The notes below the pieces were generated by a model, which was given only the letters and a program-made list of their open reading frames with translations, made no database searches and had not been told where the DNA came from. Below, one piece after another: positions 4,976 to 64,000 of a stretch of DNA of 64,000 nucleotides (position 1 is its first letter; each line of letters begins with the position of its first letter). This DNA comes from Microbacterium pumilum. GTDB lineage: Bacteria; Actinomycetota; Actinomycetes; Actinomycetales; Microbacteriaceae. Where the stretch lies: contig NZ_BAAAOH010000001.1 of NCBI RefSeq assembly GCF_039530225.1, forward strand, positions 3,286,001 to 3,350,000, in the 5' to 3' direction. The position numbers and the translations under genes were made by a program.

Positions 4976-5068
4976 GTTCGTGGACCCTTGTCTTGGACCT
5001 GCCCGCAGGCGGTCCCGCGCCGCAGAGGCTCCTCGAAGCGCGAAGCGATTCGTGGAGGGCGGCGCGGA

Positions 5069-5131
5069 CAAATCCTGTCCCCGCAACGAAAAGAAGAAGG
5101 CGTCCCCGTCAGGGGGCGCCTTCTTCTTTGG
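5069..5131 (+). repeat. Direct repeat copy 2: orphan tRNA 3' end plus terminator
   Basis: A second copy of the last part of the tRNA and its terminator. The upstream half of the tRNA is absent, so this is a fragment and not a gene. The 93 bp between the copies (4976-5068) show no recognisable gene. Confidence 0.95.
5094..5129. terminator. Bidirectional terminator in the duplicated segment, also serving the marR gene
   Basis: This hairpin has the same stem as the tRNA terminator. It is preceded by an A-rich and followed by a T-rich stretch, so it can act in both directions. It lies directly past the stop codon of the minus-strand MarR gene at 5134. Confidence 0.75.
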
Positions 5132-5133
5132 CT

Positions 5134-5604
5134 CTACTGAGGGTCGAGCACATCGCCCAGCTCGCCGAGGAACCTCGTGATGAGCGCGAGCTCGTCATCG
5201 TCGTAGCGATCGGCGACGACGCGCATCTTCTGCAGCCGCTCGCCGAAGTGGCGGAAGAACGCGCGCCGGGACCCGTCGGTGAGCACGATCACCTGCGCGC
5301 GGCCATCCCGAGGGTGCGGACGTCGCTCGACGTGCCCCGACCCCGACAGACGGTCGAGCAGCTTCGTGGTCGATGCTGTGGAGATGCGCAGGTGCCGGGC
5401 GAGGTCCTGCGGCCTGACAGCCTCTTCTCGCTGTTCGCGCATGATGAGCATGCGGAGTGCAGCCAGGTCGGTGGCGTTCATGTCCATGTCGCCCTTCATG
5501 CCGCCATGCATGCGATCCATGGCGTCACTCAGGGCGCGGATCGCCTGAAGCACCTGCATGACCGAGAGATCATGCGGGGTCTGCGGCGACCATCTTTCCG
5601 ACAT
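5134..5604 (-). CDS. MarR-family regulator, probable repressor of the carotenoid operon (CrtR-like)
   Basis: A 156-residue protein with a central winged helix-turn-helix (about 45-115): MNATDLAALRMLIM, then QDLARHLRISTASTTKLLDR (recognition helix) and the wing HVERRPHPRDGRAQVIVLT. This is the MarR pattern. The ATG at 5604 is preceded by GGAAGG. The gene is divergent from idi-crtE with only 64 bp between starts, and a palindrome over the idi -10 box fits a repressor site. In Corynebacterium glutamicum a MarR-type protein, CrtR, divergent from crtE controls C50 carotenoid synthesis in response to prenyl diphosphates. Equivalent function here is inference from position and family. Confidence 0.88.
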   Translation of the reverse strand: MSERWSPQTPHDLSVMQVLQAIRALSDAMDRMHGGMKGDMDMNATDLAALRMLIMREQREEAVRPQDLARHLRISTASTTKLLDRLSGSGHVERRPHPRDGRAQVIVLTDGSRRAFFRHFGERLQKMRVVADRYDDDELALITRFLGELGDVLDPQ

Positions 5605-5650
5605 GTGGACACCTTCCGTATCTCTCTTGTAGCATGGCGGCAGGATGATT

Positions 5651-5665
5651 GCTAGATAAACTAGC
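5651..5665 (+). promoter_or_regulatory. Palindromic operator over the -10 box of the carotenoid operon
   Basis: GCTAG-ATAAA-CTAGC is a perfect 5+5 inverted repeat spaced by 5 bp. The -10 box TAAACT (5657-5662) lies inside it and the idi ATG at 5669 follows after 6 nt, predicting a leaderless transcript whose polymerase site would be covered by a bound repressor. No good -35 box is visible. The likely binder is the adjacent MarR protein. Confidence 0.6.
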
Positions 5666-5668
5666 GAA

Positions 5669-6232
5669 ATGGGACGAGTGATGACCGATACCGACCACGT
5701 GGTCCTCCTCGACGATGCCGGCCGAGCAATCGGCACGGCACCGAAGAGCAGTGTCCACGGCACGCAGACGGCACTCCATCTCGCATTCTCGTGCCACGTC
5801 CTCAACGACGAGGGGCAAGTACTCGTGACACGCCGGGCTCTCGGCAAGAGCGCGTGGCCGGGCGTGTGGAGCAATTCGTTCTGCGGTCATCCCAAGCCCG
5901 CAGAACCCGTCATCGCCGCCGTCCACCGGCGCGCAGAGTACGAGCTCGGCCTCACCCTGACTCATCTCGAGCTTGCACTCCCCCTGTTCCGCTACCGGGC
6001 AACGGACGCCAACGGCATCGTCGAGCACGAGGTGTGCCCGGTCTATACGGCGCACACCACCGACGAGCCGGTGCTCAACCCCCTCGAGGTCGTCGACGCG
6101 AAGTGGGTCGACCCCGCAGATCTGGCCGTGTCACTCACCACTACGCCGTGGGCGTTCAGCCCATGGCTCGTCCTCCAGGCGGAGCAGCTGCACCTGTTCG
6201 ACGAGGTTCAACGCCACCGACGAGCATCATGA
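5669..6232 (+). CDS. idi: Isopentenyl-diphosphate delta-isomerase, type 1
   Basis: A 187-residue Nudix-fold isomerase that interconverts IPP and DMAPP. The catalytic cysteine is Cys72 in WSNSFCGHPKP, and the second catalytic region with its Glu is in VEHEVCPVYTAH (about 119-127); the metal-binding His residues of the family are also present. It supplies DMAPP both to GGPP synthesis and, as C5 donor, to the elongase encoded at the end of the operon. ATG 5669 fits leaderless initiation; an internal ATG at 5681 is the alternative. The stop overlaps the crtE start (ATGA). Confidence 0.95.
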   Translation: MGRVMTDTDHVVLLDDAGRAIGTAPKSSVHGTQTALHLAFSCHVLNDEGQVLVTRRALGKSAWPGVWSNSFCGHPKPAEPVIAAVHRRAEYELGLTLTHLELALPLFRYRATDANGIVEHEVCPVYTAHTTDEPVLNPLEVVDAKWVDPADLAVSLTTTPWAFSPWLVLQAEQLHLFDEVQRHRRAS

Positions 6233-61131: not shown

Positions 61132-61986
61132 GTGAGCGCAGGTCTGGCTGAGAACGAGCCGTATGTTCCCCTCAGCCGCGCTGAGCGCATCCGCACCTGG
61201 TGGGAGATCAGCATCGTGCTGCTCCTCTCGGTCGGGCGCTCGGCGATCTACTCCGTCCTCTCACTGATCCAGGCGTTGCAGCGCGATGTGTCGCTCGGCG
61301 ACCAGACGTCGTCGCTCAATCCGTCGGCGGATGCCGAGGCGTTCTGGGACGTGCTCTACCAGTTCCTCGGTCAAGCGTTCGGGCTCGTGCCCGTGGCGCT
61401 GGCGATCTTCCTGCTGTGGGACCCGGGGATGTCTGCCTTCCGCCGCATCGGACTCGACTTCCGCCGCTTCGGCGGAGATCTCGGACGCGGCGCCGCGCTC
61501 GTGGCCGTCATCGGCATCCCGGGCCTCGCCCTCTATGCGGCGGGCCGCGCACTGGGAGCCACCGTCCAGGTCGACGCCTCGCCTCTCGACCCGTCGCTGT
61601 GGACCATCCCCCTCCTCCTGCTGGCCGCACTGCGCGCCGGCCTCACCGAAGAGGTGATCTTCATCGGCTACCTCTTCGACCGGCTGCGCCGGCTCGGCTG
61701 GGGGTGGTGGGCGATCATCCTCTCGACGGCCGCGCTGCGAGGGGCCTATCACGCCTACCAGGGCCTGCCCGCGGTGCTGGGGAACTTCGCGATGGGCGTC
61801 GTCTTCGGCTGGTGCTACCGCCGCTGGGGGCGCGTCATGCCGCTCGTGATCGCGCACACCCTCATCGACATCGTCGCCTTCGTCGGCTATCCGCTGGCGG
61901 TGGCGCTGTGGCCCGGTCTGTTCGGTCCGGCGCCGTCGCCGAGCCCGACCCCCTCACTCTCGCCCAGCCCGACTCCATCGGCCTGA
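61132..61986 (+). CDS. CPBP-family intramembrane metalloprotease (CAAX-protease-like)
   Basis: A 284-residue membrane protein with about seven helices. CPBP motifs: LTEEVIFIGYLFDRL (motif 1; the Arg usually found five residues after the first Glu is Ile), GAYHAYQGL with FAMGVVFGW (motif 2), and VIAHTLIDIVAF (motif 3). The C-terminus is a Ser/Pro/Thr-rich tail. Such proteins are implicated in bacteriocin self-immunity or processing; function here unknown. GTG 61132 is 6 nt after CAATCT. The repeat array begins at its stop codon. Confidence 0.85.
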   Translation: MSAGLAENEPYVPLSRAERIRTWWEISIVLLLSVGRSAIYSVLSLIQALQRDVSLGDQTSSLNPSADAEAFWDVLYQFLGQAFGLVPVALAIFLLWDPGMSAFRRIGLDFRRFGGDLGRGAALVAVIGIPGLALYAAGRALGATVQVDASPLDPSLWTIPLLLLAALRAGLTEEVIFIGYLFDRLRRLGWGWWAIILSTAALRGAYHAYQGLPAVLGNFAMGVVFGWCYRRWGRVMPLVIAHTLIDIVAFVGYPLAVALWPGLFGPAPSPSPTPSLSPSPTPSA

Positions 61987-62242
61987 CCCAACCGTGTTGC
62001 CCTGACTCTCCATAGCGGCTGCTGACACCCCGGAAGCGGTCCGAGACCCCGGACCCCCGCCGACACCGGGTCGTGTAACACCGGGTCTCGGCGACGAAGC
62101 CGGGTCTCGGCGCCGAGACCCGGCCCCGGTCGCAGATCCCTGGATCCGGTGCACAGACCCCGCAGCTACGCCGAGACCTGGGAATTACGCCGACACCGAG
62201 CGGCACATCACCGGGTCTCGGCGTCGAGAGCGGGTCTGGAGC
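61983..62242. repeat. Left array of 19-bp-period inverted repeats (no gene from 61987 to 62396)
   Basis: Eight-base motifs CCGAGACC and their complement GGTCTCGG recur at about 19-bp steps. Reverse type: 62022, 62041, 62060, 62113, 62152 (degenerate), 62171, 62190. Forward type: 62084, 62103, 62214, 62233. Two opposed pairs (62060/62084 and 62190/62214) are separated by exactly 16 nt. GGTCTCGGCGCCGAGACC at 62103-62120 is a perfect palindrome. The rest of the gap to 62396 shows no further copies and no convincing ORF. Confidence 0.85.
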
Positions 62243-62396
62243 GCCGGGAAGGGGCGGATGCCCGGCAGTCGCGGCCGTCGGGGCCGTCGAGATTCCCGCT
62301 GGTCCCCGTTCCTCCCCGCGCAGCGTCGGCGGTGACCTGTCCACAGTCAGAGGCGGGGGCGGCGCGGGGACGGACATTTCGCATCACAGTGGCGGG

Positions 62397-63395
62397 ATGC
62401 CGCCATCCGCCAAGCCCGAACCGACCCTGTATCTCAGCAGAGACGAAGCCCTTGTCTCGGGACGACTTCACCGCGACCCGGGATTGATCCGCATTCGTCG
62501 CGGCGTCTACGCGGAGGAGGCCGGGTGGCGGGAACTTGCTCCCTGGAACCGCTACCGCGCGAGAGTGCGCGCCGTATCGATGACGTGGAAGGATCCGGTG
62601 TTCTGCCTCGAGTCGGCAGCCGTGCTGCTCGGTCTGCCCATCTTCGGCGAGCCGCGCGACATCCACCTTCTCGATGTCGGCGGCAAGTCTCGACGCTACG
62701 GGGACATCGTCGTACACGGGAGCACGGAGGCGCTCGAGCTGACCACTCGCGATGGCTTCGTGACAACGTCTGTCGTCGACACCACGCTCGAACTCTGTCG
62801 TGCGCTGCCGCCGGCCTTCGCACTCGCCACGGCGGATGCGGCCCACCGCCTCCACGCGCCGCAGTCCGTCGACCTCAGTGCGCTCGGACGGGAGCGGCCC
62901 AACCGACGAGGGCGCCGACAGCTCGATTGGGTCCAGGAGAGGGCGACCCCGGATGCGGAGTCGCCAGGCGAGTCGGTCAGCCGCGCCGTCATCGAGTGGC
63001 TGGGATTCGATCCGCCGGAGCTCCAGGTCTCGTTCCGTCATGAAGACGTCGAGGACCGTACCGACTTCTTCTGGCGAAGCCGACGCGTCATCGGCGAGTC
63101 GGACGGCTATGGCAAGTACGACGCATCGGATGCGGAGGGGTCGAAGGCTGTCTTCCTCGCCGAGAAGGTGCGCGAGGACCGACTCCGACGCCACGTGAAC
63201 GGATTCGCACGGTGGGACTGGTCGGACGCGATGCGGGCGACCCCTCTCGGCGAGAAGCTCAGCGCCGCGGGGGTGAGCCAAACCCGACCCGCCCAAAAGG
63301 GGCTTCTCGCCACCCTTCGCCACAACCCGCGGTCGATAAAACCCAAGGCGAAGACCGCCGGCGGCGCTCCCCCAGCCGAGGGGTCGGGTACTTGA
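62397..63395 (+). CDS. AbiEi-like wHTH plus nuclease-like domain protein
   Basis: A 332-residue protein. The N-terminus (LYLSRDEALVSGRLHRDPGLIRIRRGVY) resembles the AbiEi-type antitoxin winged-helix domain. The C-terminal part carries RTDFFWRSRRVIGESDGYGKYD and LAEKVREDRLRRHVNGFARWDW, the Asp, ExDG...K and EK.RED.LR pattern of PD-(D/E)XK/DUF559-like nuclease folds common in actinobacteria. No AbiEii-type toxin gene adjoins it, so a classical toxin-antitoxin pair is not supported. It stands alone between the two 19-bp repeat arrays. The ATG at 62397 has a weak GGCGGG upstream. Confidence 0.72.
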   Translation: MPPSAKPEPTLYLSRDEALVSGRLHRDPGLIRIRRGVYAEEAGWRELAPWNRYRARVRAVSMTWKDPVFCLESAAVLLGLPIFGEPRDIHLLDVGGKSRRYGDIVVHGSTEALELTTRDGFVTTSVVDTTLELCRALPPAFALATADAAHRLHAPQSVDLSALGRERPNRRGRRQLDWVQERATPDAESPGESVSRAVIEWLGFDPPELQVSFRHEDVEDRTDFFWRSRRVIGESDGYGKYDASDAEGSKAVFLAEKVREDRLRRHVNGFARWDWSDAMRATPLGEKLSAAGVSQTRPAQKGLLATLRHNPRSIKPKAKTAGGAPPAEGSGT

Positions 63396-63400
63396 CCCGA

Positions 63401-63665
63401 CTGAGACCCGTGCGCTGCGCGACTCACCGGCGCCCGGGCCGGGCCCCGAGACCCGGCACTGACGCGGAGACCCGGCCCGGGGGCCGAGACCCTGCTGCAC
63501 ACCACCAGGTCTCGGCGCGAACGCGGGGTCTCGGCGCGGCCACCAGGCGTCGGCGCCAACACTGGGTCTCGACACGAACTCCGCGATCGCCGCCGAGACC
63601 TCCCCGCACACCAGCAGGTCTCGGCGCAAACGCCAGGTCTCGCCGCACACCGCAGGGCCTCGGCG
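63401..63665. repeat. Right array of 19-bp-period inverted repeats (no gene from 63396 to 63737)
   Basis: Same motif family as the left array. Reverse type: 63401 (CTGAGACC), 63446, 63465, 63484, 63593. Forward type: 63508, 63527, 63546, 63565, 63617, 63636, 63656. Steps are 19 bp within runs (one of 20). Opposed pairs 63484/63508 and 63593/63617 again enclose exactly 16 nt, with similar loops ending GCACACCACCA and GCACACCAGCA. Beyond 63665 only the gcvP terminator is seen. Confidence 0.87.
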
Positions 63666-63697: not shown

Positions 63698-63726
63698 GAC
63701 GGATGCCGGTGGCACCGGCATCCGTC
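63698..63726 (-). terminator. Terminator of gcvP
   Basis: Perfect 12-bp arms GACGGATGCCGG (63698-63709) and CCGGCATCCGTC (63715-63726) with a 5-nt loop, 11 nt past the gcvP stop. Confidence 0.8.
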
Positions 63727-63737
63727 ACGCACGGCCG

Positions 63738-64000
63738 CTACGCGAAGGCCTCGATCGGCGGGCAGGCGCACACCAGGTTTCGGTCGCCGTACGCCTGGTC
63801 GATGCGGCGCACGGGCGGCCAGTACTTGGTGCGGACGAGCGTGCGCACCGGATACACCGCGATCTCGCGCGAGTAGGGATGCGTCCACTCGCCGGTGACG
63901 ACCGCTTCGGCCGTGTGCGGGGCGTTCACGAGCGGGTTGTCATCCGCCGGCCACTCTCCCGCTGCCACCATGTCGGCTTCGACCTTGATCGCGATCATGG
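63738..64000 (-). CDS. gcvP: Glycine dehydrogenase (decarboxylating), C-terminal end only
   Basis: The last 87 codons of a gene entering from beyond the right edge. The encoded [39 protein letters not shown] and [18 protein letters not shown] are the characteristic C-terminus of the P-protein of the glycine cleavage system, which decarboxylates glycine with PLP and passes the aminomethyl group to GcvH. The catalytic core is outside the window. An internal ATG at 63998 is not the true start. Confidence 0.92.

Follow-up and report, generated by a model that had tools for sequence, protein, structure and literature searches.

This study concerns a 64,000-nt stretch of Microbacterium pumilum DNA (the window), in which short inverted boxes form arrays on both flanks of one gene. 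The question raised by this locus is whether the arrays are an orphan repeat or the partner of the protein that is encoded between them.

Arrays on both flanks of one gene

The window scan located four elements of the form 8-11-8-16-8-11-8 on the two flanks of the gene at 62397-63395 (Table 1). The box and loop coordinates of the initial annotation were confirmed in the sequence, including its loop of exactly 16 nt at all four switches of orientation. The 19-bp steps that it had claimed were also found, but box 63656 lay 20 bp from its neighbor, the sole 20-bp step, and boxes 62113 and 63401 were out of register. A template of the form > 11 > 16 < 11 < (70 bp, at most 9 mismatches in 32) gave eight matches in the window, all within the two arrays (the four elements and their shifted registers), compared with none in each of 10 dinucleotide shuffles, in agreement with the earlier view that the arrangement is not due to chance. 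Single boxes with one mismatch were scarcely enriched (179 in the window compared with 154.8 ± 12.6 after shuffling, with 4 of 100 shuffles equally high), and the non-randomness therefore lies in the arrangement of the boxes. No intrinsic terminator (GC hairpin and T-run) was called inside the arrays, as the initial annotation had also maintained; the one call, at 63347-63359, was inside the gene.

Table 1. Features of the array locus in window coordinates (>, rightward box; <, leftward box).
Feature	Position	Strand	Remarks
Upstream neighbor, CPBP/Rce1-like intramembrane protease	61132..61986	+	first box (two mismatches) 35 nt past its stop codon
Element 1a, prolonging > box	62022		two mismatches; prolongs the period
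Element 1a	62041..62110	.	62041>, 62060>, loop 16 nt 62068-62083, 62084<, 62103<
Extra exact CCGAGACC box	62113..62120	+	between elements 1a and 1b, outside the 19-bp register
Element 1b, prolonging > box	62152		two mismatches; prolongs the period
Element 1b	62171..62240	.	62171>, 62190>, loop 16 nt 62198-62213, 62214<, 62233< (two mismatches)
332-aa gene between the arrays	62397..63395	+	AbiEi-like, residues 7-184; Vsr/I-Bth0305I-like endonuclease, residues 187-295
Single > box CTGAGACC	63401..63408	+	immediately 3' of the stop codon of the 332-aa gene
Element 2a	63446..63572	.	63446>, 63465>, 63484>, loop 16 nt 63492-63507, 63508<, 63527<, 63546< (two mismatches), 63565<
Element 2b	63574..63663	.	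63593>, loop 16 nt 63601-63616, 63617<, 63636<, 63656<
Element 2b, > remnant	63574		four mismatches
Separate hairpin GACGGATGCCGG..CCGGCATCCGTC	63698..63726	.	between array 2 and gcvP
Downstream neighbor, gcvP 3' end (glycine dehydrogenase)	63738..64000	-	convergent
Rightward boxes, at most one mismatch	62041, 62060, 62113, 62171, 62190, 63401, 63446, 63465, 63484, 63593
Leftward boxes, at most one mismatch	62084, 62103, 62214, 63508, 63527, 63565, 63617, 63636, 63656
Boxes with one mismatch	62060, 62190, 63401, 63465, 63565, 63636, 63656
Boxes with two mismatches, still on 19-bp steps	62022, 62152, 62233, 63546

Recurrence, position and pairing of the elements

The same geometry, for which the initial annotation had advised a search, was found at other loci of the genome and of the genus. 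In the 4.45-Mb source genome, the first further copies were traced through exact inner pairs and tandem pairs, and a covariance model built from 12 copies in this genome detected 16 elements at nine sites (E ≤ 1e-3; the window arrays count as one site, and 12 of the 16 are the model's own sequences). In the genus sample, at least 49 of 149 genomes, the source genome among them, had matches at E ≤ 1e-5; the number is a minimum, since only 30 candidates were scored per genome. In named genomes, the exact three-box pattern occurred in at least 120 stretches, mostly from Microbacterium (these organism counts are not rates); the matches outside this genus came from Frigoribacterium, Brevibacterium, Rothia, Phycicoccus, Subtercola and a few others, including two MAGs of other phyla. 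One match was from Phycisphaerae (L236). The match from Rhodocyclaceae (L186), with a 10-21-10 geometry and inside an ORF, was taken as chance. A phage or plasmid origin found no support, as viral contigs gave no match to the three-box pattern and plasmids none in tblastn with the window gene.

The geometry was compared in a pool of 281 distinct elements, for which the finder permitted loop lengths from 8 to 35 and spacer lengths of 10 or 11; elements from the named-genome scan were tabulated for L120-L199. The (spacer, loop, spacer) values were (11,26,11) in 161, (11,16,11) in 61, (11,15,11) in 20, (10,16,10) in 15, (11,35,11) in 8 and others in 16. The fixed 16-nt loop therefore holds for the window but not for the wider family, where loops of 26 and 15 also occur with 11-nt spacers. 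A loop of 35 equals 16 plus 19, which implies one extra box. In one genome (G441), the loop was 26 in 31 of the 32 elements found and 25 in one, and in another (G405) 15 of 18 elements had an 18-bp step. The main loop classes are 10 bp apart, which is about one DNA turn. Within an element, the three letters on the inner side of its four boxes were concordant at 0.36 compared with 0.07 after shuffling for loop 16, and at 0.65 compared with 0.37 for loop 26. The letters adjacent to the boxes can shift genome-wide: G337 had CA after 26 of 28 boxes, and six other genomes had CC after 20/20, 24/24, 28/28, 32/32, 35/36 and 122/124 boxes.

The elements were convergent in 140 cases, tandem in 116, divergent in 11, inside called ORFs in 6 and unplaced in 8, while the remaining intergenic regions at the same loci that measured 90 bp or more were convergent in 33, tandem in 118 and divergent in 94, which sets elements against regions. 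Counted as regions against regions, 43 of 80 element-bearing regions at the named loci were convergent, compared with 17 of 136 others (at least 90 bp). A stop codon lay within 30 bp of 198 of the 256 convergent or tandem elements, and in 101 of the 116 tandem ones the upstream stop was the nearer. With 16 elements at nine sites of the source genome and 6 of 281 inside ORFs, the palindrome is dispersed and extragenic. This dispersal at gene 3' ends, together with the distinct spacing, agrees with the earlier description of the arrays as BIME/REP-like with a geometry of their own.

The 3'-end position and the convergent share speak for the main rival explanation, in which the AbiEi-like protein would be a resident regulator, the flanking arrays would serve autoregulation, and the dispersed arrays would be fixed 3'-end sites that halt or insulate converging RNA polymerases, with no mobility. 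The difference of about one DNA turn between the main loop classes also fits it, as does the sharing of many element sites by several species; orthologous sites were often retained, with an element in both members of 506 of 911 redundant pairs. At L161 and L202, one species had an element in the orthologous intergenic region where a second species had a palindrome of a different kind. Further, AbiEi proteins bind inverted repeats and autoregulate, according to two reports (PMC7319586, PMC3985639). The patchy element numbers within the genus are left unexplained by fixed regulatory sites.

The initial annotation had read each array as a ladder of stems and had proposed arm covariation as a check. 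The arms do covary across loci. In 14 loop-26 elements, 93.4% of the cells paired, and both-side changes were found in 44 cells, compared with 16.0 after shuffling and 5-9 in slid controls; the pooled per-position counts concurred with the covariation of the loop arms. In 193 overlapping orthologous pairs, the loops had 293 double changes that kept pairing, 208 that did not and 343 single changes that made or broke a pair; the respective numbers for the outer spacers were 198, 369 and 442, so the outer spacers are less constrained than the loops. In the source genome alone, 0 of 13 pairs among 12 elements were compensatory. In the spacers and loops of tandem elements, G-U and A-C stood at 165:134, which was no excess over the slid controls taken together (1.02 to 1.60 to one), and this test lent an RNA-only reading no support. 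The pairing of the arms is not RNA-specific, and the ladder as an RNA structure therefore found no specific support.

These counts bear on a second rival, in which the palindromes would act as RNA at gene ends, either as intrinsic bidirectional terminators or as mRNA-protecting hairpins. The 3'-end position, the covarying arms and the double changes that keep pairing in the loops speak for it, but G-U does not exceed A-C beyond composition, and the arrays contain no terminator-like call while a separate hairpin adjoins array 2. In the loop-26 class, moreover, pairing at the center of the outer spacers is little above expectation. Rfam gave nine matches, all under the gathering score. As it also leaves no role for the 19-bp step or for boxes that differ between loci, we consider this explanation improbable.

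A gene family bracketed by arrays with differing boxes

The window gene had no match in Pfam or NCBIfam. Its AbiEi assignment came from the PADLOC AbiEi profiles, which match it, and the first 184 residues of the protein align with the AbiEi fold. The second domain matched the catalytic-domain fold of EDxHD/Vsr-type endonucleases, in a fold comparison that covered the solved-structure families of the VIA list. Among 30 family members, Pfam found AbiEi_4 in five, Abhydrolase_8 in two and nothing else, and E192, D223, E234, D236 and K240 of the predicted endonuclease core, the acidic ones among them candidate catalytic residues, were invariant. The family protein probably carries a lysine in place of the histidine of EDxHD/Vsr enzymes. 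No AbiEii toxin gene follows the window gene; the next gene is gcvP, on the opposite strand and about 340 bp away. The genes of this family are now annotated as hypothetical or "AbiEi antitoxin"; in the class sample, 102 of 148 genomes had a homologue at E ≤ 1e-20. Genes were called with a home-made codon-score caller, which recovered what was expected between 56 and 64 kb of the window and missed some genes, such as the family gene in L388.

Among the 1381 distinct proteins encoded in the element loci, 14 were BLASTP homologues of the window gene; all 14 touched elements, 11 of them on both sides, compared with 11 of the 1367 non-homologues with elements on both sides, three of which were one hydrolase from related strains. 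Homologues were present in all 12 element-bearing genomes searched through loci. CCGAGACC elements flanked a homologue on both sides in Rothia kristinae (L438), one Frigoribacterium (L426) and, within the genus, M. fluvii (L412), and in Brevibacterium W7.2 (L154) elements at 5021-5090 and 6103-6172 lay about a homologue called at 5034-6035. Other homologues from these organisms had elements on a single side or on neither, and the count in the both-flank test was 12 of 26 compared with 3 of 23.

Homologues that were selected by protein mostly lacked CCGAGACC elements, and many had other inverted words on both flanks. A both-flank 8-mer test gave p ≤ 0.01 in 45 of 75 family genes compared with 2 of 76 neighbors (some loci overlap); this test catches GC-rich words at some loci, and a letter-blind period scan was cleaner. 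In the letter-blind four-box scan of 98 family genes, a period of 19 was found in 57, on both sides in 25, while each other period from 12 to 30 was found in 0-2 and never on both sides. Among 311 neighboring genes, none had arrays on both sides; arrays on any side, at three mismatches, were counted in 79, a number inflated by the intergenic regions common to neighbors and family genes, so that the comparison is restricted to both-side counts. Across the class, a sample of 49 loci (two from the source genome, with L473 and L474 duplicating genes of the genus set) gave 19 bp in 11 (5 on both sides), 20 bp in 6 (3 on both sides) and each other period from 14 to 26 in 0-1.

The box is common to both flanks of one gene and differs between family members. 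The classes included GAGAAACC with (11,11,11), ATAAACGC with (11,9,11), GCATAAAC with (11,13,11), GTTGAGAA and GACGAGAC with (11,17,11) and CGACACCC with (11,24,11). Box similarity tracked protein similarity, an effect weak in size (0.214 compared with 0.150 for the largest of 1000 permutations, 71 genes). Some homologues were flanked by palindromes of a different shape. The gene between the window arrays, a point missed by the initial annotation, thus belongs to a family often bracketed by 19-bp arrays with differing boxes, so that the repeat is no longer read as an orphan but as one half of a protein-repeat pair. That the AbiEi-endonuclease fusion and the 19-bp-step array form such a pair is well supported, and we consider this coupling highly likely.

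The same results weigh on a third rival, in which replication errors alone, by template switching at quasi-palindromes, would keep or perfect the palindromes with no protein partner. Templated correction could explain why arms are perfect although their letters change and why the letters next to all four boxes agree, and it could add to the covariation described above. It cannot account for a box shared by the two flanks of a 1-kb gene, for the tie to a single gene family or for a step that is almost always 19 bp, and as a sole cause it is very improbable.

The GAGAAACC class was also dispersed, with seven sites in G365, four in G302, three in G106 and two each in G296 and G361; five other genomes searched, the source genome included, had none, and the reversed GAGAAACC pattern gave no site in the same genome search. 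Its loop was 11 in every site, with 7-25 permitted. The 16 sites examined for gene context were convergent in 4 cases, tandem in 9, divergent in 2 and without a called left gene in 1, and a 3'-end bias is less clear in this class. G365 carried the GAGAAACC class, the 26-loop class and two family genes. Dispersed copies in genomes are known here for at least two box families, CCGAGACC and GAGAAACC, and those of CCGAGACC lie mostly at gene 3' ends.

The locus between the CPBP gene and gcvP was compared across species. Of 30 CPBP loci, 18 had a family gene downstream, with gcvP visible beyond in 14. A 19-bp array with at most four mismatches, a threshold at which no control was run, was found in 15 of these 18, and the boxes varied (CGAGAGAA, CGAGACAC, GACGAGAC, CGAGACCG and others). 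In nine loci the gene was missing and CPBP and gcvP were less than 200 nt apart, three of them with a solo array; three loci were assigned to neither group. At three gene-less junctions of other species (L326, L327, L333), GGATGCCGG hairpins resembled the separate hairpin next to array 2. The rival of a resident regulator with fixed sites leaves unexplained this presence or absence of gene and array as a cassette at one locus, as well as the conserved endonuclease core and the occurrence of arrays downstream of the gene, and we regard it as unlikely.

Comparison with known systems and proposed mechanism

REP/REPIN-RAYT systems are described in PMC3116915 and PMC3733652 as short palindromes that are dispersed outside genes, with copies in inverted pairs, together with a nuclease gene that has palindromes of its own type on its flanks. 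The elements here are likewise dispersed, extragenic and arranged in inverted pairs, and a predicted nuclease gene is likewise flanked by its own palindrome type, but they consist of four boxes at a 19-bp step. The GTAG tag of REPs was found within 10 nt outside the elements in only 4 of 281, and CGTC in 39 of 281 compared with 40 of 281 for its complement GACG, judged by that equality, without a background rate. A Y1/HUH tyrosine transposase match was absent from the window gene and the 30 family members in Pfam. TIRtrons/TIRYT, in the part of PMC3733652 that treats them, are tyrosine transposase genes flanked by inverted repeats that are unrelated to REPs, differ from gene to gene and are in some cases dispersed. 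The present loci resemble them in having inverted repeats around nuclease-type genes, varying by gene and in part dispersed, and differ in the nuclease superfamily and the array geometry.

The AbiEi fold of the first 184 residues is shared with Type IV toxin-antitoxin AbiE systems, whose antitoxins bind inverted repeats, four copies in the case of Rv2827c, as described in PMC7319586 and PMC3985639. In contrast, no AbiEii toxin gene follows here, the protein has an extra endonuclease-like domain, and the repeats are also downstream and dispersed. Compared with the EDxHD homing endonuclease I-Bth0305I and with Vsr, the gene here stands alone and is bracketed by arrays. Among the papers found in searches of an open-access library, AbiEi-nuclease genes with palindromic arrays were not described in titles or abstract openings.

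We infer a nuclease-palindrome system that would work like REP/RAYT in binding, cutting and movement, with neither component in common as far as tested. The protein of the enclosed gene probably has the arrays as its DNA partner, through a mechanism of binding, cutting and copying. The AbiEi-like domain would bind the boxes, both tandem and inverted, in double-stranded form, with one protein per 19-bp unit, and this binding may regulate the protein's own gene. The Vsr/homing-type endonuclease domain would then nick or cut such palindromes or their target sites, and repair would copy the palindrome, and sometimes the entire gene cassette, to new places, where insertions right behind a stop codon may be tolerated. 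Copying of the palindrome by the nuclease is the less certain step, and our judgment on it is evenly divided. The broader proposal, to which we give an even chance, is that this is a second, independently evolved counterpart of REP-RAYT that is widespread in Actinomycetes, in which AbiEi-Vsr fusion nucleases would carry palindromes with a 19-bp step, and occasionally the cassette of their own gene, to the 3' ends of genes.

REP palindromes and RAYTs are the standard nuclease-repeat pair of bacteria, and a second architecture, if true, would show that such pairs have arisen repeatedly. It would likewise account for a class of palindromes at gene 3' ends and point to a function for the many genes that now go under hypothetical or antitoxin names. 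In this view, the recognition code would have been rewritten many times with the geometry nearly fixed, and the proteins and their boxes would be a natural library for the AbiEi recognition code, with dozens of natural protein-box pairs in which DNA recognition and dispersal could be tested.

Family members and their flanks

The M. pumilum genome holds five matches to the family protein in all. Two of these, L502 and L503, are located in the table, and neither is accompanied by a 19-bp array; L502 has a weak four-box array with a 20-bp period on one side. Reading of the flanks of four other family genes (L386, L408, L376, and L351) showed that clear four-box arrays were not the flanking form there. 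Palindromes of other shape, such as TTCCTGCGAGTGCG..CGCACTCGCAGGAA, were seen on both flanks of these genes.

Coordinates of the loci (genome:contig:positions)
Locus	Feature	Coordinates
L502	Family member	G000:C1:1734689-1735630
L503	Family member	G000:C1:3899352-3899918
L309	Element triplet	G342:C1:875067-877500

Palindromes at orthologous intergenic sites

Orthologous intergenic regions were compared between species. In another species, the convergent site L202, orthologous to the sites of L143, L240, and L207, carried a long inverted repeat, GTCTCGCTGCGCTCGCTCAACGACC..GGTCGTTGAGCGAG..GCGACGAGAC, which differs from the elements and possibly represents another dispersed palindrome family. The intergenic region of L161, orthologous to those of L138, L141, and L280, contained the palindrome CGAAGGAGAACTCACGG..CCGTGAGAACTCCTTCG where related species carry the CCGAGACC element.

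Geometry and centre of the elements

Among the genomes seen, G405 (L107-L119) was the only one with a set of elements off the 19-bp step: 15 of its 18 CCGAGACC elements had boxes stepped at 18 bp and spacers of 10 nt. The three element matches of L309 were spaced exactly 205 bp apart and two of them had the same score, and the triplet looks like a tandem duplication of the element unit. In loop-26 elements the arms were variable and the CG dinucleotide at the palindrome centre was strongly conserved (about 1.67 bits). This central CG may mark a site of cleavage or crossover.
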